Assembly: GCF_937951745.1 (NCBI RefSeq) | Contig: NZ_CALFBQ010000047.1 | Coordinates: 1 to 64,000 of the forward strand | DNA length: 64,000 nt | DNA from: an uncultured Chloroflexus sp. | GTDB lineage: Bacteria > Chloroflexota > Chloroflexia > Chloroflexales > Chloroflexaceae | Direction: 5' to 3' | Shown here: one piece after another, positions 19,328-35,063 of the stretch | How positions within the stretch are numbered: the first letter of the stretch is position 1 | Layout: each line of letters opens with the position of its first letter | Notes under the pieces: model-generated | The model's input: the letters and a program-made list of their open reading frames with translations, nothing else | The model's database searches: none | What the model was told of the DNA's origin: nothing | Made by a program: the position numbers and the translations under genes

Positions 19328-20383
19328 TCACCCCTCCCCGCGTCGCCAGTTCCAAATGATGACTGAGAGGTAGCCAGCGGCGCCAATCGCGATTCCGACC
19401 GGCCACGAGTTGCTGGCTTGCATGCCGACCAAACCGGCGAGCAACGGCCCGACTGCGGCCAAAAGCGGGCGTAGATCGTCGCTGGGGGTGAGGCTAGCGC
19501 GGCGGCGCGGGAGCGACGACGTTTCGGTCGGCGGTAATTCAGCTTGCACGGTTTCGTCATCATCTTCGTCATCGTCTTCGGCCTCGAAGATGGCCGGCGG
19601 GAGCGGGTTCTCGACCGGCGGATTTTCGCGCAGTTCGGCGCGGTAAGCTTTGCGCCAGCGATAGGTTGGCCGGCGGCGCGTTTCGTAGAGGTGGTAGGCG
19701 GCGCGCTGCAAGAAAGCCGGCTGGCCGGCGCTGAGCACCATCAGTTCACGCACTTCGTCGGCGCTAAAGAGCGGTTCGCCTTCCTCAAGGTAGCTGTCGA
19801 GCAGCATACGCGCTTCAGCAAAGCTGAGCGGGCCGAGCCGCACGGTGGCGAACGGTTCGCTGAGCGTCGGCGGCGCCCCGCGCACGGCCCCAACCACCAT
19901 CAGATCGTAGGCCATGCTCTGACCGGTCGGCCCGGCGACGCCGTGGTAGCCGGGGGAACTGCGCCGGGCCAGCCGGCCTAATCGTTCGAGCAGGTCTTCG
20001 CCCCAACCGGCGGCGATTGCCGACTCAACCCCATCGAGGCAGATCAGCACCGGACGCCCATTGGCGGCCAACCGCCGTTCAAGCGCAGCGATAGTCGGTT
20101 CGCTGCCGCCGAGTGCGCGCACGATCAGGCCATAGGTGGTGGCGGCGTCGGGCAACACGGCCAGATCGAGATAGAAGGCGTTGAGATTGGGAATTTCGAG
20201 CACTGCGCCGGCAGCTTGGGCGAGATGGGTGAGCAGCGACGAGCGCCCGCTACCGCTCGGCCCATACAGCAAAATTGGCCGCCGCCGTTCGAGTTGCTCA
20301 CATGCCGCGCCAAGCTCACGCCACCGCCCAACAAATTTGCCCGGATCGACGATGCGCCCGCGTTCGCTAAAGGGGTTGGTCAT
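19328..20383 (-). CDS. AAA-type ATPase-like membrane protein with Arg in the Walker A
   Basis: A 351-residue protein. The N-terminal P-loop region reads FVGRWRELGAACEQLERRRP then YGPSGSGRSSLLTHLAQ (residues 41-57), a Walker A in which the usual Lys is Arg. Walker B is VLICLDGVESAI, and a winged-helix-like segment follows (ELMVLSAGQPAFLQRAAYHL). An acidic stretch (FEAEDDDEDDDETVQAE) leads to two C-terminal hydrophobic segments (LLAAVGPLLAGLVGM and PVGIAIGAAGYLSVIIW). It resembles STAND/Orc-like ATPases that begin NPFxxRG.I.....FVGR. The ATG at 20383 is chosen for its AGGTGG site. Function unknown. Confidence 0.75.
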   Translation of the reverse strand: MTNPFSERGRIVDPGKFVGRWRELGAACEQLERRRPILLYGPSGSGRSSLLTHLAQAAGAVLEIPNLNAFYLDLAVLPDAATTYGLIVRALGGSEPTIAALERRLAANGRPVLICLDGVESAIAAGWGEDLLERLGRLARRSSPGYHGVAGPTGQSMAYDLMVVGAVRGAPPTLSEPFATVRLGPLSFAEARMLLDSYLEEGEPLFSADEVRELMVLSAGQPAFLQRAAYHLYETRRRPTYRWRKAYRAELRENPPVENPLPPAIFEAEDDDEDDDETVQAELPPTETSSLPRRRASLTPSDDLRPLLAAVGPLLAGLVGMQASNSWPVGIAIGAAGYLSVIIWNWRRGEG

Positions 20384-20459
20384 ACGTTCCACCTAATATA
20401 GAGAGGCAGGGAGTGGGCAGACAGGGGATGTTCACGCACGGCTTCCTCTTGCCTACTGC

Positions 20460-22169
20460 CTACCGTTCTAAATACCACCGTTCAATATTCCACAAATACC
20501 GCGGCGTACTCAGATCGATCGGGCCATCGAGCGTGCGAAAGCGACTATCGAGTACCACCGCCGCGCGATCAACCCACAGGTACAAATAGGGCAACTCGCT
20601 GGCAAGGCGGGCCTGCGTCTGGGCAATCGCACTGCGCCGCTCGTCTCGGCCATAGAGTTGGCGGGCAATCAGCGCCTGTTCATCGTAGACCGGATCGTTA
20701 AAACCAACAAAGTTGCGCGTGGCCCGCGTATCACCCGGACCCTGTGCGAGCTGGCTGGAATGGAAGAGAGCGAAATCGTCGGGGTCGTAGAACATAGTAT
20801 CGGCGAAAGCCGGATCGCCGGCGCCGTTGATCCAACTGCCTAGCAAGAGGTCGAAATCGTAAGGCGCGACATAACGGGCGAGAATGACGGTAGCAAAGTC
20901 GGCTGGTTCAACCACAATCTGAATGCCGATGCTGGCAGCGATTTCGGCAATGCGCCGCGCCGCCACCAACCGCCGTTCGTCGTCGTTGCGCACGTAGAGG
21001 CGGGCAATCAGCGGCACACCCTCGCGTTGGCGAATCGTCGCCCCTGCCGGCAACGTCCAGCCGGCAGCGTCAAGGATTTCACGCGCCGCCGGCAAGTCGC
21101 CGGCTGTCATCGGCGGGGTCAGGTCGGCCCAACTTCCCGGCAATGCGCCGTTGCCAACCGGGATGCCGGCGCCTTTGGTGGCCGTCTCGACCAGCCGGGG
21201 CAGATCGATGGCAGTAGCTATTGCTTGCCGCAAGCGGACATCGGCAAAGGGCCGTCCGGGGCGCAAATTGAAGGCTAAAAAATACACGCCGTTTTCGGGG
21301 ATGCTACCGCTGCGCAGGGTGGTCACATCGGCGAGGGCATCTTGGCTGCCCCACGGCAATTCGGCGGCTTGCAACCGGCCATCGCGCAGCGCGCTCTGGG
21401 TGAGGCTAGTTTCAGGCATAACGGTCAAGACCACGCGATCGAGCAGCGGCGCGCCGTGGTGATACTGTTCAAACCGATCGAGAACGAGACTACCGTTGGT
21501 TTGCCGTTCGGTCAGGCGAAACGGCCCACTGCCAATCGGCTGATTCAAGAAATTAATCTGGCTCAGCTCGCGCCCGGCGAAGAGGTGGCGGGGCAGGATC
21601 GGCACAGCCAGCAAACTGAGCATCGGCGCATACCGGCTGCGCAGCTCGATCACCACGGTGCGTTCATCAGGGGCAGAGGCGGTGGCAATGTAGCGCAGAT
21701 CGGCTAACAACGCCGTGCTGGTTTCGGGTAAACTACGCAACGCTTCGAGGGTAAAGAGCACATCAGCCGCGGTCAGCGGTTGGCCGTCGTGCCAGCGCAG
21801 ATCAGGGCGCAGAGTAACGGTGAGCGTCCGGCCTTCGGCATCGATATCGAGCCGTTCGGCTAGATCAGGAGTAGGCCAGAGATCAGCGTCGAGGCGCATC
21901 AAACCGCTGTACAGCAAGCCGATCAGATGTTCTTCGCCGCGCGATCGCGGTTGCCACGGGCGCAGATCGGTAATATTGGCAGCAATCCGCAGATTTAGTG
22001 TGCCGCCGCGTGGCAGTGGCGTCGCGGTTGGCAGCGGCGTCGCGGTTGGCGGCAGCGTGCTGATCGGTGTTGGCGTTGCCGGCGCCGCACAAGCAGCCAA
22101 CCAGATGCTCAACCCCACCCACCATACGATCCGGAACCAGCGCTGCCAAAGAGGGTTGCGATGCTTCAT
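20460..22169 (-). CDS. Peptide/nickel-type ABC transporter substrate-binding lipoprotein (SBP family 5)
   Basis: A 569-residue extracytoplasmic binding protein. It has a lipoprotein signal with lipobox LAAC (Cys27), a Thr/Pro tether (PTPISTLPPTATPLPTATPL) and the SBP_bac_5 fold: LRPDLRWHDGQPLTAADVLF, NQPIGSGPFRLTERQTNGSL, NGVYFLAFNLRPGRPFADVR and LYVRNDDERRLVAARRIAEI. Ligand unknown; family members bind oligopeptides, nickel or other solutes. No permease or ATPase gene is adjacent. It is divergent from a CRP/FNR-type regulator, so it may be its target. Confidence 0.88.
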   Translation of the reverse strand: MKHRNPLWQRWFRIVWWVGLSIWLAACAAPATPTPISTLPPTATPLPTATPLPRGGTLNLRIAANITDLRPWQPRSRGEEHLIGLLYSGLMRLDADLWPTPDLAERLDIDAEGRTLTVTLRPDLRWHDGQPLTAADVLFTLEALRSLPETSTALLADLRYIATASAPDERTVVIELRSRYAPMLSLLAVPILPRHLFAGRELSQINFLNQPIGSGPFRLTERQTNGSLVLDRFEQYHHGAPLLDRVVLTVMPETSLTQSALRDGRLQAAELPWGSQDALADVTTLRSGSIPENGVYFLAFNLRPGRPFADVRLRQAIATAIDLPRLVETATKGAGIPVGNGALPGSWADLTPPMTAGDLPAAREILDAAGWTLPAGATIRQREGVPLIARLYVRNDDERRLVAARRIAEIAASIGIQIVVEPADFATVILARYVAPYDFDLLLGSWINGAGDPAFADTMFYDPDDFALFHSSQLAQGPGDTRATRNFVGFNDPVYDEQALIARQLYGRDERRSAIAQTQARLASELPYLYLWVDRAAVVLDSRFRTLDGPIDLSTPRYLWNIERWYLER

Positions 22170-22288: not shown

Positions 22289-22945
22289 ATGGCATCACGG
22301 CTGCATGAAGCGGAATCCTTCGTCTGGCATCGCCTAGCCCCATTAGGGCAGGCGCAGTCATTCCGCCGGCACAGCACCATCTATACTCCAGCCCAACCGG
22401 CACAGATGATCTATTTGTTGGCCAATGGGCAGGTTGGCTTGCACCTTGCTTCGCGGGAAGGAAGGTTGCTGACCGTGCGCGTCGTTGAGAGCGGCCAAGT
22501 GTTTGGCTTGAGCGCCCTAGAGCGCGAAGCAACCTACGACACCTTTGCCGAGGCGTTGACACCGGTGCGCGCGTTGGCCGTGCCGCGGGCCGAGGCGCTG
22601 CATGCGATCGCGAATGATGGCGCGTTGGCGACGGCAATGCTCGAATTGCTCGGTCAGCAACGACTGATTGTCAGCCGCCGGATCGAAGAGGTGGCGTTCA
22701 AGTCGGTACCGGCCCGTTTGGCTTCGGTGCTACTCGAGATGTCTGAGACCCATCCGGTCGCGACGCCGCAACCGGCCCGGCTGCCGCGCCGTACCCATCA
22801 GCAACTAGCCGACATGATCAATGCCTATCGCGAAACTGTCACCAAAGTCATTAACCAGTTCCGCGATGCGCGCCTGCTCGATGTGGACAGCTCCGGCATC
22901 ACGCTGCTCAACCCGTCTCGGTTGCGTGAATTGGCTCAAAGTTAG
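22289..22945 (+). CDS. CRP/FNR-family transcriptional regulator
   Basis: A 218-residue regulator. The effector-binding fold covers residues 15-125 (QSFRRHSTIYTPAQPAQMIY, GQVFGLSALEREATYDTFAE). A long helix follows, then a winged helix (RTHQQLADMINAYRETVTKV, about 170-190, and ARLLDVDSSGITLLN). The two CRP-like proteins of this window are not close copies. The effector pocket is too divergent to predict cAMP. Divergent to the family-5 binding protein gene, with a palindrome between. Confidence 0.9.
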   Translation: MASRLHEAESFVWHRLAPLGQAQSFRRHSTIYTPAQPAQMIYLLANGQVGLHLASREGRLLTVRVVESGQVFGLSALEREATYDTFAEALTPVRALAVPRAEALHAIANDGALATAMLELLGQQRLIVSRRIEEVAFKSVPARLASVLLEMSETHPVATPQPARLPRRTHQQLADMINAYRETVTKVINQFRDARLLDVDSSGITLLNPSRLRELAQS

Positions 22946-27065: not shown

Positions 27066-27314
27066 ATGGCGCTGCTTGGTTCATTGATTGCGTTGGGTGC
27101 GGCGCTGGTCTTTGCAGCGTTAGCGATCGCTACCCTCTGGGGTGGTTGGCAGGCGGTGCAGCGCGAACTCGTGCGCGGCTTTGTGAGTACCAATCCTCCC
27201 GTGGGCGAACGTATTTGGAGCATCCTCTTAACTATTGTTCCGCTCTTAGGTGCGGCGCTGCTTGGCCTGCTGGCGGCATGGCGAATCGCGCAAGTAGCCT
27301 TTGGGCTTGGATAA
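27066..27314 (+). CDS. Small two-helix membrane protein of unknown function
   Basis: An 82-residue protein with hydrophobic segments at about residues 3-27 (LLGSLIALGAALVFAALAIA) and 52-78 (ILLTIVPLLGAALLGLLAAW). Between them lies a loop with RELVRGFVSTNPPVGERIW. AAGGAG is 7 nt upstream of the ATG. It lies 56 nt after glcE, and its end is 13 nt before gpmI, whose ribosome-binding site overlaps its stop codon, so they are likely co-transcribed. Confidence 0.65.
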   Translation: MALLGSLIALGAALVFAALAIATLWGGWQAVQRELVRGFVSTNPPVGERIWSILLTIVPLLGAALLGLLAAWRIAQVAFGLG

Positions 27315-27327
27315 GGAGCAAAACCGT

Positions 27328-28947
27328 ATGACCAGTCCCCGTCCGGTGGTGTTAATTATTATGGATGGCTGGGGCGTCGCCCCTCCCGGCCCCGGCAATG
27401 CGGCTGATCTGGCCGATACGCCGCATGTTGATGAGTGGATGGCGACTTGCCCCTTCACGACCTTGGGTGCATCTGGGCTGGATGTCGGCTTGCCGGCAGG
27501 CCAGATTGGCAACTCGGAAGTCGGCCATCTCAATATCGGCGCCGGCTTCGTTGTCTATCAAGAGCTGACCCGCATCAGTAAAGCGATTGCCGACGGCGAT
27601 TTCTTTACCAATCCGGCCCTATTGCAGGCGATTGAGCACGTCAAACAACGTGACTCGGCCCTGCACCTGATGGGCCTCTTCGGCCCCGGCGGCGTCCATG
27701 CCCACGAGGATCACCTGCATGCCTTGCTTGAATTAGCCCATCGCCACCAACTGCACCGTGTCTACCTGCATCTCTTCCTCGACGGGCGCGATGTGTTGCC
27801 GCGCAGCGCGCTTGGCTTTCTCGATACACTCGAAGGCGTGATTGCCCGGCTCGGCACCGGCGTGATCGCGACGGTGTCGGGGCGCTACTACGCGATGGAT
27901 CGCGATAAGCGCTGGGAGCGCACCGGTAAGGCGTATGCGGCGTTAGTCGATGGCGTCGGCGAGAAAGCACCCTCGGCGCGGGCTGCGATTGAAGCCTCGT
28001 ATGCAAAGGATGTTAGCGATGAGTTTGTTTTGCCGACGGTCATCGTCGATGCTAATGGCGCACCGATCGCCACTGTGCGCGACGGCGATGCAGTAATCTT
28101 CACCAACTTCCGCCCCGACCGGGGCCGCCAGTTGACCCGTGCTTTCGTCGATCCGGAGTTGAACGAGCGCATTCGCCAGCATTACGAGCGGCAAAAAGCT
28201 GAGGGCCAGCCGCTGCCGCCGCAGATTTGGCAGCGTGATCGCCAGTTGCGCGATCTGTGCTTCGTGACGATGACCCAATACGAAGAGGGTTTGCCGGTAT
28301 TGATCGCCTTCCCGCCACGCTACGTCACTAGCCCGCTGGCGGCAGTGATTAGCCAAGCCGGTATGCGCCAATTCCACATCGCTGAAACCGAGAAGTACCC
28401 ACACGTCACCTTCTTCCTCAACGGCGGGCGTGAAGAGCCGTTCCCCGGTGAAGATCGCCAGCTCATTCCCTCGCCGAAAGTCGCTACGTATGATCTCAAG
28501 CCGGAGATGAGCGCGCCGGAAGTGACCGAGGCGCTCTTGCAGGCGATCGAGAGCGACCAGTACGATTTCATTGTGGTCAACTATGCGAACCCGGATATGG
28601 TTGGTCATACCGGCAGTATTCCCGCCGTGATCAAGGCTTGCGAAGCGGTCGATGCCGGGTTGGCGAAGGTGGTGCCGGCGATTTTGGCCCGCGGCGGGGT
28701 GGCATTGGTGATTGCCGATCACGGCAACGCCGAGCAGATGATTGATCCGGAGACGGGTGGCCCGCACACTGCCCATACGACCAACCCCGCGCCTTGTTTC
28801 TTGATCGGCGGCCCCGGTTACGGCAAAGATGCGGTGAGCCTGCGTAGCGGCGGGCGCTTGGCCGATGTTGCGCCGACGTTGTTGGATCTGTTGGGGTTGC
28901 CGCCGGCTGCCGATATGACCGGGCAAAGCCTGATTGTGCGCCGGTAG
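27328..28947 (+). CDS. gpmI: 2,3-bisphosphoglycerate-independent phosphoglycerate mutase
   Basis: Interconverts 3- and 2-phosphoglycerate using two Mn2+ ions; 539 residues, a little longer than the usual ~510. Motifs: VLIIMDGWGVAP (metal Asp), GNSEVGHLNIGAG (phosphoserine nucleophile, about residue 65), GPGGVHAHEDHLHALLELA, LFLDGRDVLPRSA, FTNFRPDRGRQLTRAF and VIADHGNAEQM (metal ligands). The start at 27328 has AAGGAG 9 nt upstream; the reading frame extends 9 codons further without support. With glcDE upstream it may link glycolate salvage to glycolysis. Confidence 0.95.
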   Translation: MTSPRPVVLIIMDGWGVAPPGPGNAADLADTPHVDEWMATCPFTTLGASGLDVGLPAGQIGNSEVGHLNIGAGFVVYQELTRISKAIADGDFFTNPALLQAIEHVKQRDSALHLMGLFGPGGVHAHEDHLHALLELAHRHQLHRVYLHLFLDGRDVLPRSALGFLDTLEGVIARLGTGVIATVSGRYYAMDRDKRWERTGKAYAALVDGVGEKAPSARAAIEASYAKDVSDEFVLPTVIVDANGAPIATVRDGDAVIFTNFRPDRGRQLTRAFVDPELNERIRQHYERQKAEGQPLPPQIWQRDRQLRDLCFVTMTQYEEGLPVLIAFPPRYVTSPLAAVISQAGMRQFHIAETEKYPHVTFFLNGGREEPFPGEDRQLIPSPKVATYDLKPEMSAPEVTEALLQAIESDQYDFIVVNYANPDMVGHTGSIPAVIKACEAVDAGLAKVVPAILARGGVALVIADHGNAEQMIDPETGGPHTAHTTNPAPCFLIGGPGYGKDAVSLRSGGRLADVAPTLLDLLGLPPAADMTGQSLIVRR

Positions 28948-29041: not shown

Positions 29042-32000
29042 TCATCTCACCAACGTGCGCACCAAAGCGAGCAAATCACTGCGCCGGTAGCGACCCTTTT
29101 GCAACACAGTTGCGCCGATGTTGGCGAGCGCACTCAGCTCGTCGTGATGGAGCGTTTTGGCAGTGACGACCACAACTGGCGTCGTCATTGTTTGGCGTAA
29201 ATGGTGCAAGAGGGCCAAACCATCGCCATCAGGCAGCATCAGATCAAGAATCACTAGCGCCGGCTTTGCACTGAGCCAGATCGTTTTCCCAGTGACGCCA
29301 TCGCCAGCTTCAATCACATGCCAACCCTCGCTTTCTAACGCACGCCGGATCATCAAGCGCGTTGGTGGATCGTCTTCAATCAATAAAATGGCATTTGAGT
29401 TCTGTTGTGGTCGGGGCAGTACTGTCTTCACGGTGCGAATAACTGCTTCCACATCACCCGGCCACCGCGCGCAAAGCATCGTGCACTCACCACTATCAGC
29501 ATGGCACAGCCAGATCACGGGGACGGTATCCCAACCAGCGGCCAGCAGCATCTCCTCTACTGGCGCGCGCTCGCGCGTGAAATCGATCAGCAACGCGGAT
29601 GGCGGCCGGCGCACGTGCGCGATTGCTTCGGCCAATGACGCTGCCCGCTGCACCTGCCAGCCCACTTGTTCGAGCGCGTTTTGGAGGGCGCGGGCTTCAA
29701 TGGCTGTCACCAACACGATATCGGGTTGCGGCCAATAGTGGGTTTGCGCAACGGGGTCATCAGGCTCACGTGATAACGTGATCGGTATTTGAATCGTGAA
29801 ACTGATGCCGGCCGGCGTGCGTGGATGGGCTGCCAGTACACCTCCCATCAACTCGCACAATTGGCGACTTAACGCTAACCCTTCCCCTTCATCGGCACGA
29901 CGCGATCCGGCGGGCGGTAGCACGAATGGCGTGAGCAGGGTTTGGAGGTGGCGTTCGCTCAACGTTGCGCCGGTATCGTTGATGGTGACTGCAAGCACAT
30001 CTCGTTGCGCGTCAGCCGTTTGTCGCTGCACTTGCACCGTGATAGCGCCATGACGAGTCGTGGCGGCAGCAAAACGCAGCGGATGGATCAACACGTGGCG
30101 TAGCCGGTTCAGATCAGCGACGATCAAGCCCAAGTTCGACGGTCGCTCAATTTCGAGCCGGTTATGGTTATGGCGAATCAGCGGTTCAATCTCGCTCAGC
30201 ACATCATCAAGCAAGGTATCGAGCGAGAACGGTTCAGGCTGTAAGGTCAGCATCCCCGACTCGATCTTGGCGCTATCGAGCAGAATATTGAGCCGGCCTA
30301 GCAAACGCCGACCAGCGCGGGCAATCGTGCCAGCATCAGCAGAAGCTGCTGGGCGGTCGGTAAGCGCCTCGCGCAACATTTCGCCCATCGCAATAATCGT
30401 GTTGAGCGGGTTGCGCACATCATGGTCGAGGCGGGCCAGAAAGGCGCTGCGCTCGCGATTAATGGCTTCGGCGGCCTCTTTGGCTTGTTGCAACGACCCC
30501 ACCAACCGCACGCGAGTCAGTGCCTGTCCGGCCAAGCGCGCGGCAATGCCTACATAGGCGATCTCGTCGTCGGTAAAAGCGTTGGGTTGCGGGCGATACA
30601 GGGTCAACAGAGCGTAATCTTGCTGATCCAAGTGGATCGTCGCTGCCACCACCGATCCCTGTAGAGCGGGTAAACTCGGAAATGAATAAGCGCTCAGATC
30701 GGCGATATAGCACGGGTTGGCACGCGCCTCTTCGAGAGCCTTGGGCGCGACTAATTTGAGGAAAGGATCGCGTTGGTGGCCATGCGTGACTTGCGGAGTC
30801 CAGAACGCCCCGTCTGCTTCACGGGTGTAAATACCGATGCGATCATCGGGTTCTTTGCCGGTAGCCAATGTATTAACTACACACTGACAGATCGCCGCTT
30901 CATCAGACAGATGACTTAAGGCAAGGCTCAGATCAATCAGAATCTGTTCGCTACGGCTGCGCCGACGTTCTTGAGCAAGCAAGGCCTCATTTTGGGAGAG
31001 CGCACGTTGCAATTGGATAGTGCGCTGAGCTACCCGATCTTCAAGTTTAGCAATGGTTTCATTCAATTCATTGGTGAGCCGGGCGAGCGCACGGGACAGA
31101 TCGCCGATCTCGTCAGCGCCAACAATTGGGATCGGTGTTTCACGCCAGCCGCTGGCCACCCGTTTGGCCGCGTAGGTCAATGTGGTCAACGGGCGAGTGA
31201 CATGACGATTGATGAGCCAGCCGAGCGTCACAAAGATCGTGGTACTGCTGCCGATCATCCAGAGGATTAAGCCATAACTCATCCAGTCCGCCAGATTGAG
31301 CATCGCAGCCGCCTGATCTTGTTCGGTCGCTATCGCCTGCTGGATGCCATCAATGGCGCGCAGCATATCATCGGTGTGATACCGCAAGGTGATGGCATAC
31401 TGTTGCAGTTCCCAATCAAGCGTAGTCAATTGCAAGAAGGTGTTGAGATAGGCAGTCAACCGCTGTTGGAGGAGGGTGCGCTCTGGTGCGGGCAAGCCCA
31501 TAGTCGCCGTTTGCAATTGATTAATCTGGATGCGCACCCCATCAATGTATTCCTGCCGGCGAGTAGTCAGATACGACTGCTCTTCCAGCGCGAGCCGCAA
31601 ACCTCGTTCGCGGAAAGTGCTCTCGTGCTGATCGAGCGTTAACCACAAGGCGCGCTGCGCTTCACGAAGCTGATACTCAATCCCATCGATACGGCGGCGT
31701 TGTTCGATCTGGGCCGTAATCTGCGCAAGGGTGACTTGATACGTATTGAGGATCTGTCCCAGTTCTTGTACAAATGGTGTGAGCGAGGTGAATTCGGTGC
31801 TCAGCGTCTCAAGCTTGCCAAACGCTTGGCGTACTTCTTGCAAGGTGGTAGTGTAAGCAACGACCGTGAGCGGTTCGATGGGTTGGTTGCGATACGCAAG
31901 TTCGAGGAGAGCACTATCATGGCGGTGCGCCATTACCAAGGCAATATTGAGTGACAATGCCGCTTCGCGGGCTTGTGCTGCACGCTGAAGGCGCTCGGTG

Positions 32001-32122
32001 GTGTGTTGGTGCAGCGCTGCTTGGATCCACAAGCCGCCGATTAACACCACCAGCGAAAGCATGATTGCGCTCGCGATACCGAAAGTTAGCCAGCGGCGCA
32101 AGGAAGGGGAAGGATCATTCAT
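29042..32122 (-). CDS. Hybrid sensor histidine kinase with two receiver domains
   Basis: A 1026-residue membrane sensor. Order: TM helix (about 12-36), a roughly 245-residue extracytoplasmic helical sensor, TM helix (about 282-306), HAMP (NRHVTRPLTTLTYAAKRVAS), coiled coil, a GAF-like region (about 400-545), HisKA with the phospho-acceptor His in LDHDVRNPLN (about 566), an HATPase domain, a receiver-like domain without the usual Asp pocket (about 790-900), and a complete C-terminal receiver (ILLIEDDPPTRLMI, phospho-Asp in VILDLMLPDGDG, about 957). The HATPase N-box reads RLRHVLIHPLRFA, lacking its usual Asn residues. The ATG overlaps the stop of the binding-protein gene by 4 nt. Confidence 0.9.
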   Translation of the reverse strand: MNDPSPSLRRWLTFGIASAIMLSLVVLIGGLWIQAALHQHTTERLQRAAQAREAALSLNIALVMAHRHDSALLELAYRNQPIEPLTVVAYTTTLQEVRQAFGKLETLSTEFTSLTPFVQELGQILNTYQVTLAQITAQIEQRRRIDGIEYQLREAQRALWLTLDQHESTFRERGLRLALEEQSYLTTRRQEYIDGVRIQINQLQTATMGLPAPERTLLQQRLTAYLNTFLQLTTLDWELQQYAITLRYHTDDMLRAIDGIQQAIATEQDQAAAMLNLADWMSYGLILWMIGSSTTIFVTLGWLINRHVTRPLTTLTYAAKRVASGWRETPIPIVGADEIGDLSRALARLTNELNETIAKLEDRVAQRTIQLQRALSQNEALLAQERRRSRSEQILIDLSLALSHLSDEAAICQCVVNTLATGKEPDDRIGIYTREADGAFWTPQVTHGHQRDPFLKLVAPKALEEARANPCYIADLSAYSFPSLPALQGSVVAATIHLDQQDYALLTLYRPQPNAFTDDEIAYVGIAARLAGQALTRVRLVGSLQQAKEAAEAINRERSAFLARLDHDVRNPLNTIIAMGEMLREALTDRPAASADAGTIARAGRRLLGRLNILLDSAKIESGMLTLQPEPFSLDTLLDDVLSEIEPLIRHNHNRLEIERPSNLGLIVADLNRLRHVLIHPLRFAAATTRHGAITVQVQRQTADAQRDVLAVTINDTGATLSERHLQTLLTPFVLPPAGSRRADEGEGLALSRQLCELMGGVLAAHPRTPAGISFTIQIPITLSREPDDPVAQTHYWPQPDIVLVTAIEARALQNALEQVGWQVQRAASLAEAIAHVRRPPSALLIDFTRERAPVEEMLLAAGWDTVPVIWLCHADSGECTMLCARWPGDVEAVIRTVKTVLPRPQQNSNAILLIEDDPPTRLMIRRALESEGWHVIEAGDGVTGKTIWLSAKPALVILDLMLPDGDGLALLHHLRQTMTTPVVVVTAKTLHHDELSALANIGATVLQKGRYRRSDLLALVRTLVR

Positions 32123-33168
32123 CGCCGCACCTCCGCCCAAGCGGCACGGTAGAGTTGATACGTCGCCGAGTCAACATCGACTAAACGGAACAACCGCCCC
32201 TCTTGTTCAAGAGCTTGATAGCGTTGGATCAAGCGTCGCAGATCGTCATCAAGACGGTCAAAGGCTGCGCGATTCGGTGAAATATAGCGGGTCTTGTTCG
32301 CTAAAGCCGCACCGTGTTCAGCCGTCAAGATAAAATTGATAAACTGCTCGGCGGCGACGTGGTTAGCGGCATTGGCGAGCACACACATACTATCAGCCGC
32401 GAAAATGGCACCCTCGGCCGGAACTTCAAACTGGATGTCAGGATCAATGATCGCTATTTGGAGAATATCGCCACTCCATTCGATCGCAACATCGGCTTCG
32501 TTGCTCGCCAAGAAGGTTTGCCCATCATTACCGGCAAAACGAACGATGCGCCCGGCGTGCGAGCGCAACCAATCACGGGCAGCGCCAATGGCGGCCGGAT
32601 CACTTGTGTTTGGGCTAAATCCTAGCTTGATCAATGCTAATCCGATCCCAAAGCGGGCGTCGTCAACCATAACCACGCGATTACTGCGAGCCGGATCGAA
32701 CACATCGTCCCAACTGGTAATCGATTGGCGCTGGGCTGATTGGCGATAGCCAAAGCCAAGCACACCCCACAGATATGGCACGCAGAACCGATTGACTGGA
32801 TCGCCTGCAATCCGATTAAATGCCGGAGCAAGATTGGCCAGATTAGGGATTCGTCCACGGTTCAGCACGGCCAGCCGCTGCTCACGGAGCAGGCGATCGA
32901 TGAGCACATCGCTGACGATCACTAAATCGTACGGTTCTTTGGCGGTGGTTAGAATGTTGTACAGCTCTTCGTTGTTGCTATAGGTGTGGTAGACAATGAC
33001 AATGCCGATCTCGTCAGTAAACGCATCGAGTAATGCAGGATCAATATAGGTGTCTCGATTGAGGATACGGAGCAGGGCAGGGGTCGGTGACACTAGCGGT
33101 GATGGTGGCGACGCGCAACCGATCAACATCCAACTTAAAAATAGCAGTTTGATGAAGCGTGATTTCAT
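32119..33168 (-). CDS. PotD/F-type polyamine (or iron) substrate-binding lipoprotein
   Basis: A 349-residue extracytoplasmic binding protein with lipobox LIGC (Cys18). Motifs: LRILNRDTYIDPALLDAFTD, YDLVIVSDVLIDRLLREQRL, NRFCVPYLWGVLGFGYR, ADVAIEWSGDILQIAI, and FEVPAEGAIFAADSMCVLAN. These match PotD/PotF-like spermidine/putrescine binders. The ATG at 33168 gives the clean lipoprotein signal; an ATG at 33216 is possible. No permease or ATPase gene adjoins. It is coupled by ATGA to the hybrid kinase, so it may serve as its ligand receptor rather than in uptake. Confidence 0.88.
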   Translation of the reverse strand: MKSRFIKLLFLSWMLIGCASPPSPLVSPTPALLRILNRDTYIDPALLDAFTDEIGIVIVYHTYSNNEELYNILTTAKEPYDLVIVSDVLIDRLLREQRLAVLNRGRIPNLANLAPAFNRIAGDPVNRFCVPYLWGVLGFGYRQSAQRQSITSWDDVFDPARSNRVVMVDDARFGIGLALIKLGFSPNTSDPAAIGAARDWLRSHAGRIVRFAGNDGQTFLASNEADVAIEWSGDILQIAIIDPDIQFEVPAEGAIFAADSMCVLANAANHVAAEQFINFILTAEHGAALANKTRYISPNRAAFDRLDDDLRRLIQRYQALEQEGRLFRLVDVDSATYQLYRAAWAEVRR

Positions 33169-33341
33169 TGGACAGAAATCTGGGCGTAACGATTCAGCAT
33201 TCGCCGCGGTATTCATAATAGCACGATGATATTACCAACCGGCAATCATTCCGTGCCAATACGGCATTCATACAGGCAGGGTGAAAGCGGAGTATAATAA
33301 TTGCCGCCTGCACTCTGCCGCTCACGACAGGAGTGATGCGT

Positions 33342-35063
33342 ATGTCAGCTCGCCGCCAACGCTGGGAATTCCGCCCGCCAGCGCCTGCCGATGTTAGCGA
33401 ACGTCTTGGTCTGCCTCCGTTACTGGCGACGTTGCTTTACCAGCGTGGCTTGCATGATCCCGCCGCGGCCAGCGCCTTTCTCGCCGCCGATTACGCTGCC
33501 GGTCTGCACGATCCATTTCAAATGCGCGGTATGGCTGAGGCCGCGGCCCGGATCGCCGCAGCCATCGATCGCGGTGAGTTGATGACGGTCTATGGCGATT
33601 TTGATGTTGATGGGGTGACGGCAGTCGCGTTGGTAACCCAAGCGATTGGCGCAATGGGCGGGCGGATCCGACCATACATTCCGCATCGCGCTCGCGAGGG
33701 GTATGGCTTGAACAACGTTGCGATCGGCCAGTTGGCCGCCGATGGAGTGCGCCTGCTGATTACGGTTGATTGCGGCATCTCGAATCACGCCGAAGTGGCC
33801 GATGCGAACCGGTTGGGGATCGACGTGATTGTCACCGACCACCACCATCCGCCTACCGAACTGCCGCCAGCGTTGGCAGTCGTTAATCCCAAGCAACCCG
33901 ATTGCGCGTATCCATTTAAAGAGTTAGTCGGTGTTGGGATTGCGTTCAAGCTCATCCAAGCATTGGCGCGCAACGGCAAGCGTCCGGCCAATTTGCGCGG
34001 GCGCGATATGCTCGATCTGGTGGCGCTGGGAACGGTGGCCGATATGGGGCCATTGCTCGACGAGAATCGGGTCTTAGTGCGGGCCGGCCTCATCGCGCTG
34101 AACGAGACGACGCGTCCCGGCGTGCGTGCGCTGATGGCCGCCGCCGGATTAGCGCCGGGGTTGATCGATAGCGGCGCAATCGCGTTTGCGCTGGCCCCGC
34201 GCCTCAATGCCGCCGGCCGGCTCGCTGAAGCTCGCCGCGCCTACGAGTTGTTGCTGGCCAGCGATCGGGAAACTGCCGATGGGTTAGCCGCCGAATTGAA
34301 TGCGACCAATCGCGAGCGACAGGCGCTCACTCGCCAGTTACAGGCGCGAGCCGAAGAGCTGGTCGCGCAGAGCGGGCGGGCCAAGCAACCGTTGATTGTG
34401 CTCGCCAGCCCTGAATTCAACGCCGGTGTGATCGGGCTCGTCGCGGCTCGTATCGTCGAGACCTACTACCGGCCGGTGGTGGTGATCGAGCAAGGTAGCG
34501 AAACCTCACGCGGTTCGGCTCGCTCGATCCCCGGTTTGAGTATCATCGATATCTTCGATCAATGTGCCGACCTATTCGTGCGCTACGGCGGCCATGCTGC
34601 GGCAGCCGGCTTTACCATTACCACTGCGCAGATTCCGGTGCTCGAACAGCGATTGATCGCTCTAAGCCGGCAATATGTGCGCGATGACCAACTGGTGCCA
34701 CGGCTGATGATTGACGCAGTAGTACCGCTGACCGAGCTATCGTGGGAACTATACGCCGGCATCCAGCAGCTTGAGCCGTTTGGGCAAGGCAACCCGCAGC
34801 CGATCTTGATGGCGCCAAACGTGACTGCCATTGACCCCCAGCCGACCAGCGATGGCGCCCATCTGCGCATGCGGGTGCGCGCCGGCACGAGCATGTTCGA
34901 GGCGATTGGCTTTCACTTTGGCCACTTCGCCGAGGCGTTGCAGCGATACCCAACGATTGATCTCGCCTATCAACTAGCCGTTGATGAATGGAACGGGCAA
35001 CGGCGCATGCGGTTGCTGGTGCGTGATTTTCGGCGCGCGGGAGGCGGGCGGAACGGTGGCTGA
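33342..35063 (+). CDS. recJ: Single-stranded-DNA-specific exonuclease RecJ
   Basis: 5'-3' exonuclease on single-stranded DNA in recombination and repair; 573 residues. DHH phosphoesterase motifs: GDFDVDGVTAVAL (about 84), LLITVDCGISNHAE, VTDHHHPPTELP (DHH at about 163), LVALGTVADMGPL and LAPRLNAAGRL. The DHHA1 motif GGHAAAAGFT and a C-terminal OB-type segment follow. The ATG at 33342 has ACAGGAG 8 nt upstream; a GTG at 33333 and an ATG at 33336 are closer to that site and less likely. Monocistronic by layout. Confidence 0.94.
   Translation: MSARRQRWEFRPPAPADVSERLGLPPLLATLLYQRGLHDPAAASAFLAADYAAGLHDPFQMRGMAEAAARIAAAIDRGELMTVYGDFDVDGVTAVALVTQAIGAMGGRIRPYIPHRAREGYGLNNVAIGQLAADGVRLLITVDCGISNHAEVADANRLGIDVIVTDHHHPPTELPPALAVVNPKQPDCAYPFKELVGVGIAFKLIQALARNGKRPANLRGRDMLDLVALGTVADMGPLLDENRVLVRAGLIALNETTRPGVRALMAAAGLAPGLIDSGAIAFALAPRLNAAGRLAEARRAYELLLASDRETADGLAAELNATNRERQALTRQLQARAEELVAQSGRAKQPLIVLASPEFNAGVIGLVAARIVETYYRPVVVIEQGSETSRGSARSIPGLSIIDIFDQCADLFVRYGGHAAAAGFTITTAQIPVLEQRLIALSRQYVRDDQLVPRLMIDAVVPLTELSWELYAGIQQLEPFGQGNPQPILMAPNVTAIDPQPTSDGAHLRMRVRAGTSMFEAIGFHFGHFAEALQRYPTIDLAYQLAVDEWNGQRRMRLLVRDFRRAGGGRNGG

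Follow-up and report, generated by a model that had tools for sequence, protein, structure and literature searches.

What does a solute-binding lipoprotein do when its gene is joined to that of a histidine kinase-like receptor and no transporter genes lie beside it? The question is raised by a gene pair in the 64,000-nucleotide stretch of Chloroflexus DNA analyzed here (the window). An earlier sequence-only reading had proposed the lipoprotein to be the ligand-sensing arm of a hybrid histidine kinase. The sensing part of that proposal is retained as likely, given the pairing and gene overlap, the presence of a separate potABCD system, a second module of binding proteins and kinase, and a predicted TorS/McpS-like sensor domain; against it stands the fact that the pairing is not universal. 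On balance, we favor a sensory unit in which the lipoprotein serves as a TorT-TorS-like arm and feeds a non-catalytic, DivL/ChpT-like output.

Organization and conservation of the gene pair

The features of the locus are listed in Table 1. The junction of the two genes reads CGGCGATGAATGAT, such that the TGA stop codon of the lipoprotein gene shares bases with the ATG start codon of the receptor gene, as had been noted earlier. The GAGGT portion of the ribosome-binding-site-like stretch for the receptor is kept in Chloroflexus relatives. The pair is flanked by recJ and gpmI, names that were assigned from the translations. The earlier statement that no permease or ATPase gene follows also holds: none was found on either side of the pair in the 64-kb window, nor beside the pair in relatives, and transport via an adjacent permease was rejected on this basis. 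A promoter scan gave no candidate upstream of the lipoprotein gene, the number of matches being not above chance.

Table 1 Features of the lipoprotein-receptor locus (window coordinates)
Feature	Position	Strand	Remarks
recJ	33333-35063	plus	
PotD/PotF-type solute-binding lipoprotein gene	33168-32119	minus	349 aa; lipobox LIGC, Cys18
GGAGGTG ribosome-binding-site-like stretch, receptor	32134-32128	minus	read from sequence; within 3' end of lipoprotein gene
ATGA start-stop overlap of lipoprotein and receptor genes	32119-32122	minus	read from sequence
Receptor gene	32122-29042	minus	1026 aa
Extracytoplasmic domain, aa 37-280	31283-32014	minus	all-helical, bimodular, McpS/TorS-like (predicted structure)
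HAMP linker, aa 303-354	31061-31216	minus	E 4.8e-11
HisKA/DHp, aa 558-623	30254-30451	minus	candidate phospho-acceptor His567 (codon 30422-30424)
Degenerate HATPase, aa 670-781	29780-30115	minus	Phe684 (codon 30071-30073); G1 box DTGAT
Degenerate intermediate receiver, about aa 800-905	29408-29723	minus	N-terminal acidic pocket lost
Terminal receiver, intact	29042-29399	minus	Asp917, Asp960, Thr987, Lys1009
gpmI	27301-28947	plus	

The pair is kept in most Chloroflexus genomes, and the start-stop overlap (ATGA or GTGA) is present in all six of those with a readable junction; in one further genome the lipoprotein gene lies at a contig end. Such conservation of the overlap is more than chance. 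Adjacent pairs also occur in two genomes of a sister genus, ZM16-3, and in relatives the pair sits beside recJ and/or gpmI. The conserved pairing expected from the earlier reading thus holds for these genomes and fails in three, G003, G062, and G012, where the receptor is kept and the lipoprotein is absent. The partnership is therefore not obligatory, and the receptor may also sense alone, like McpS. Upstream of the receptor gene in G003 there is a residual GAGGTG...ATGA stretch, which may be either the remnant of a lipoprotein gene since lost or a plain ribosome-binding site.

No fusion of lipoprotein and receptor was seen among the matches listed for relatives. The pair was confined to the two genera in a survey of 41 family genomes plus ten loci from named genomes, and the remaining matches examined in this wider search lay in potABCD operons or unrelated neighborhoods. 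When the sensor domain was searched against the whole phylum, most matches covered HAMP alone. Beyond the two genera, a single near-full-length sensor match was among those listed, and it has no solute-binding protein (SBP) neighbor; its genome (G413) belongs to another class, and the protein is a distant relative of the sensor. There is, in addition, a second genus-wide module composed of one or two SBP lipoproteins, a dCache hybrid kinase, and a response regulator.

The lipoprotein

As proposed earlier, the lipoprotein is PotD/F-like: it carries a lipobox and matches the SBP_bac_8 family profile at 7.8e-21. Among proteins of solved structure, its sequence is matched best by a PotD-like protein from Listeria (1.3e-47) and by Escherichia coli PotD (4e-45). 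The AF2 model (pLDDT 88) has as its top Foldseek match the E. coli PotD-spermidine complex (TM 0.84/0.91, 2.3 Å). Both family sequence and fold place the protein within the PotD/PotF (SBP_bac_8) family, with scores under the NCBIfam PotD and PotF equivalog cut-offs. It is not encoded with PotABC components. Indeed, a complete potABCD set, with its own PotD and an intact spermidine pocket, is present on another contig of the same genome, and the PotD-family matches checked in other related genomes are mostly inside potABCD operons.

The polyamine contacts of E. coli PotD, namely W34, Y37, D168, E171, W229, W255, D257, and Y293, were compared by alignment, from which the G007 lipoprotein was left out. 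The window lipoprotein retains the equivalents of Y37, D168, W229, D257, and Y293, and has Arg, Phe, and Ala in place of W34, E171, and W255, respectively; the sister-genus lipoproteins retain W34 and W255. The polyamine suggested previously is thus an uncertain ligand, favored by the conserved D168, D257, and Y293 and disfavored by the three replacements. Iron, the other suggestion, was rejected: nothing speaks in its favor, and in both sequence and structure the best matches are to polyamine proteins. An amine or some other small cation is the probable ligand.

The receptor

The receptor consists of TM1, a helical extracytoplasmic domain, TM2, HAMP, a GAF-like domain, HisKA, a degenerate HATPase, a degenerate receiver, and a second receiver. 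The large extracytoplasmic domain recognized earlier is confirmed and is predicted to be all-helical, like those of McpS and TorS. Its model (pLDDT 84) superimposes on McpS with a Z-score of 18.7 (2.4 Å over 210 residues) and on TorS from the TorS-TorT complex with a Z-score of 15.6 (2.6 Å over 214 residues), values to be read against scores of up to 14 for unrelated helical bundles. According to the predicted structure, a helical bimodular domain lies between two transmembrane segments and is followed by HAMP, as in TorS.

In known histidine kinases the N-box asparagine of the HATPase domain coordinates Mg-ATP and is required for catalysis. It is replaced by phenylalanine in seven of seven Chloroflexus orthologues, the G1 box is broken in all seven (DTGAT versus DxGxG in the window receptor, with the second glycine gone), and the first receiver is degenerate in the seven orthologues read. 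The sole profile match of this receiver in the window protein is VpsR receiver-like (2.8e-5). The phospho-acceptor His567 is kept in 5/7 genomes; at this position G004 has Tyr and G003 has Gln. By comparison, the N-box asparagine is present in 49/49 other HATPase domains read from the same genome (50 surveyed, L109 not counted). The sister-genus orthologues are intact, with the N-box asparagine in both and an intact intermediate receiver. The terminal receiver is intact throughout, Asp917, Asp960, and Lys1009 being kept in all relatives, with Thr or Ser at position 987.

The window receptor therefore has the HisKA and HATPase homology of a transmitter and lacks the motifs of a competent ATPase domain, so that the label of hybrid histidine kinase given to it earlier is not supported. 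To judge from its residues, it looks like a pseudo-histidine kinase of the DivL/ChpT/RcsD kind, that is, a kinase architecture maintained under selection with its catalytic residues lost. Because the residues needed for ATP use are gone, the receptor probably signals without kinase activity of its own.

Purifying selection acts on the pair. The receptor has a dN/dS of 0.15-0.24 and the lipoprotein one of 0.15-0.21, compared with 0.02-0.21 for neighboring genes and 0.08-0.11 for the kinase of the second module. The dead ATPase part of the receptor gives 0.16-0.27; among close relatives the strongest constraint falls on HisKA (0.02-0.10). Receptor frames are full-length, at about 1025-1030 residues and ∼50% identity across the genus. 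Two single-genome lesions were observed: codon 241 of the G002 receptor gene is an in-frame TAA, and the G007 lipoprotein gene has a frame break directly after the lipobox.

Proposed mechanism and alternatives

The two genes would together specify a single sensory unit. Held at the membrane by its lipid anchor, the PotD-family protein would capture a small ligand on the outside and would dock on the receptor's helical outer domain, by analogy with TorT on TorS. From the outer domain the signal would travel via TM2 and HAMP to the dimer helices in the cytoplasm. The sister-genus receptor, with its two receivers, would respond as an ordinary hybrid histidine kinase. In the Chloroflexus receptor both the ATPase module and the first receiver appear dead yet remain under selection, and therefore the output is most likely non-catalytic. 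Binding by the receptor could control another kinase or response regulator, or phosphate from another kinase could pass between His567 and the terminal receiver in a DivL- or ChpT-like manner. We advance more tentatively the fuller scheme in which the lipoprotein gates a conserved-pseudokinase receptor that controls a separate kinase allosterically or takes part with it in a phosphate relay, the catalytically intact form surviving in the sister genus.

A hybrid histidine kinase of the ordinary type, SBP-dependent and catalytically active, as first envisaged, is very improbable. The retention of His567 in most genomes, the constraint on HisKA, and the intact sister-genus orthologues would suit it, but the N-box asparagine is needed for catalysis and is lost from every Chloroflexus orthologue, along with the second G1 glycine and a functional first receiver, and His567 itself is replaced in two genomes. 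It is also improbable that the system is a decaying relic whose function was lost in the Chloroflexus ancestor. The dead motifs, the lesions in G002 and G007, and the missing lipoprotein gene in G003 could mark piecemeal loss under way; however, dN/dS is far under 1 across the lipoprotein and the receptor, dead ATPase part included, the frames are full-length genus-wide, and the terminal receiver is intact in all.

That the two genes are mere neighbors is unlikely. The receptor would then sense directly, in an McpS-like manner, with the lipoprotein serving another transporter, perhaps PotABC, or scavenging independently. The three genomes with a receptor and no lipoprotein, and the distant G413 sensor without a nearby SBP, are in accord with such an arrangement. 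There is also a precedent in Pseudomonas aeruginosa, where the SBP_bac_8 proteins that are genomic neighbors of AgtS and AruS showed no interaction with the sensor domains of those kinases (PMC11113362). By analogy this is a published counter-example to a sensing role of adjacent SBPs. The likeness lies in PotF-like SBPs encoded next to sensor kinases, but the sensor domains there are SBP_bac_3 and CHASE5, and a transporter operon lies next to AgtS (PMC11113362). Against mere adjacency are the overlap conserved in six genomes, the dedicated PotD of PotABC, and the paralogous SBP-kinase module.

If the fuller scheme is correct, it would represent a ligand-driven DivL/ChpT-like receptor. To our knowledge, few pseudo-histidine kinases have been studied so far, and neither DivL nor ChpT is known to have a solute-binding lipoprotein partner or such a helical outer domain. 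The putative transmembrane pseudo-histidine kinase described here has both a candidate input, the binding lipoprotein, and a sister-genus relative with intact motifs, and the switch from catalytic to non-catalytic output is therefore testable by comparing the two. PotD-type sensor arms are suggested in a phototroph lineage in which none seems to have been described before. Note that an annotation of hybrid histidine kinase based on domain matches can mask a dead kinase.

Relationship to known systems

TorS acts through the binding protein TorT in the sensing of TMAO. The pair resembles TorT-TorS in its adjoining genes for a binding protein and a hybrid kinase-type receptor and in its predicted all-helical, bimodular sensor domain. 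It differs in that the lipoprotein is PotD-type (SBP_bac_8) rather than TorT-type, the sensor sequence identity is about 11%, and the Chloroflexus transmitter, by its ATPase motifs, appears dead. In the polyamine-sensing NspS-MbaA systems of Vibrio cholerae and Sinorhizobium meliloti, the genes overlap by 3-16 bp (PMC9993111). There, too, a PotD-family binding protein is used for sensing, and the receptor has a periplasmic domain, two transmembrane segments, and HAMP, but MbaA ends in GGDEF-EAL, whereas HisKA, HATPase, and receiver domains were found in the window receptor. For the output, the closest parallels are the Caulobacter pseudo-histidine kinase DivL, with Tyr at the His site, and ChpT, with a degenerate ATPase domain (PMC4211667, PMC9981736). 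Both retain the histidine kinase architecture with catalysis lost. DivL differs in having kept its N and G boxes, and its Tyr matches that of the G004 receptor.

Genomic context and ligand of the lipoprotein

Overlap of the lipoprotein and receptor genes by ATGA, as stated in the sequence-only reading, was confirmed, and a GGAGGTG motif in the 3' end of the former is positioned five bases ahead of the receptor start. The pair is flanked by recJ and gpmI, and, again in agreement with that reading, no permease, ATPase, or other transporter component was found in the gene neighborhood within the window. The assignment of the lipoprotein to the PotD/PotF family likewise holds from both its sequence and its predicted fold, which matches the PotD-spermidine structure with TM scores of 0.84/0.91. 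The window also encodes a second orphan lipoprotein, an oligopeptide-type solute-binding protein (SBP_bac_5, 1.7e-66) with no permease alongside, whose neighbors are AAA-type ATPase and Crp-like open reading frames.

Coordinates of the genes and regions discussed
Feature	Location	Positions	Strand
Lipoprotein gene (349 aa)	window	33168-32119	-
Receptor gene (1026 aa)	window	32122-29042	-
Oligopeptide-type lipoprotein	window	20460-22169	-
AAA-type ATPase ORF	window	19328-20392	
Crp-like ORF	window	22289-22945	
G002 receptor gene	L028	8901-11999	+
G007 lipoprotein gene	L026	8564-9800	-
G027 intergenic spacer	L031	6680-7169	
G413 773-aa protein	L106	5597-7918	-
C19 lipoprotein-kinase module	L036	3044-10581	

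The potABC genes of this genome are located on contig C83 together with their own PotD, which retains all eight residues that form the main polyamine contacts of PotD (W34, Y37, D168, E171, W229, W255, D257, and Y293). The window lipoprotein is thus probably not a subunit of the PotABC transporter. It retains five of the eight, including D168, D257, and Y293, whereas the equivalents of W34, E171, and W255 are substituted; W34 and W255 are kept in the sister-genus lipoproteins. Given these three replacements, an amine is a plausible ligand, but the sequence does not establish spermidine. In SBP_bac_8 proteins, GABA or 5-aminovalerate can take the place of the predicted polyamine as ligand (PMC11113362).

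Conservation and selection

The genome belongs to a relative of Chloroflexus; Chloroflexus islandicus isl-2 (88% identity) and one Chloroflexota MAG (90%) are among the named records with matching loci. The neighborhood search upheld the expected pairing in six Chloroflexus genomes (that of the window, G002, and G004 to G007), all with an ATGA or GTGA overlap, and in two of the sister genus, where the genes are separated by 33 bases (G034) or ∼490 bases (G027). In G001 the lipoprotein gene sits at a contig end. The pairing failed in Chloroflexus G003 and sister-genus G062 and G012, which carry the receptor gene (divided between two contigs in G012) but no lipoprotein orthologue elsewhere at the threshold used. 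The pairing is therefore old and mostly retained in Chloroflexus, but not obligatory. The G027 spacer contains short direct repeats, in contrast to the other paired genomes.

Nei-Gojobori dN/dS values were counted with a custom script between the window genome and G005/G007, leaving out more distant pairs, which are saturated at synonymous sites. They were 0.21/0.15 for the lipoprotein and 0.24/0.15 for the receptor as a whole, with 0.10/0.05 in its HisKA part and 0.27/0.16 in its dead ATPase part. Neighboring genes gave 0.02-0.21 and the kinase encoded on contig C19 0.08-0.11. These ratios point to real constraint on both proteins, weaker than on housekeeping genes, and to selection rather than decay. 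In G002, codon 241 of the receptor gene, toward the end of the outer-domain region, is an in-frame TAA, and the lipoprotein frame of G007 (C. islandicus) is broken in the proline-rich linker right behind the lipobox. Each could be a sequencing error or a true loss; for the G007 break, a switchable tract is a third possibility.

Receptor domains

The outer domain, modeled with AlphaFold2 on an alignment of eight relatives, is predicted to be all-helical (pLDDT 84, pTM 0.60). The structures that it matches best are the ligand-binding domain of McpS (Z 18.7, 2.4 Å over 210 residues) and TorS, both alone (Z 15.7) and in the TorS-TorT complex (Z 15.6, 2.6 Å over 214 residues); unrelated helical bundles score up to Z 14, aligned over only ∼150 residues. 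The crystallized McpS domain held small ligands and the binding partner of TorS is a protein, TorT, and thus the modeled fold would permit either mode of sensing. A near-full-length relative of this domain occurs, with no SBP, in a 773-aa protein of G413, a distant phylum member, adjoining a ParA-like ATPase and a histidine-kinase-like open reading frame.

In an alignment of nine orthologues, the hybrid histidine kinase of the sequence-only reading looks like a pseudokinase. All seven Chloroflexus receptors have Phe in place of the N-box Asn (Phe684 in the window protein) and Thr, Ser, or Ala in place of the final glycine of the G1 box DxGxG, and the N-terminal acidic residues of their intermediate receiver are missing. 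In both sister-genus receptors these parts are intact, with NLLSNACKFT or NVLSNACKFT as the N-box, the motifs DTGIG and GTGLGL, and two good receivers. As a control, the Asn is present in all 49 other readable HATPase domains of the genome, which are the better-scoring ones; the window receptor ranks 66 of 80 against this family (43 bits). The phospho-acceptor His567 is retained in five of the seven, with Tyr in G004 and Gln in G003. The terminal receiver retains Asp917, Asp960, Thr987, and Lys1009, of which both Asp residues and the Lys are invariant across relatives.

Proposed mechanism

The liganded lipoprotein would engage the outer helical bundle of the receptor, and the resulting motion would reach the dimer helices by way of TM2 and HAMP. 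Since the receptor would have no ATPase activity of its own, its output would be either binding-based or a relay that draws phosphate from a separate kinase and involves His567 and the terminal receiver. That two species have lost the His favors binding as the common denominator. Pseudo-histidine kinases are already known. Precedents for such non-catalytic output are DivL, with Tyr at the His site and no kinase activity (PMC4211667), and ChpT, a histidine phosphotransferase with a degenerate ATPase (PMC9981736). Approximately ten binding-protein-driven kinases have been characterized (PMC9602780), and NspS-MbaA is a PotD-type sensor with overlapping genes (PMC9993111). No report joining binding-protein-driven sensing with a pseudo-histidine kinase, nor any on the Chloroflexus system, was found in the open-access literature searched.

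A second lipoprotein-kinase module

On contig C19 of the same genome, two further PotD-family lipoproteins in tandem lie upstream of a dCache hybrid kinase, a single-receiver response regulator, and a receiver-PAS-GGDEF-EAL protein. Further Chloroflexus genomes contain versions of this module that have either one or two lipoproteins, and thus, counting the window pair, PotD-type lipoproteins have been placed next to sensor kinases more than once in the genus. The motifs SHELRTPL and NLLSNAAKF of its kinase are conserved in each of the six relatives examined. The module may link small-molecule sensing to c-di-GMP, in a manner reminiscent of NspS-MbaA.
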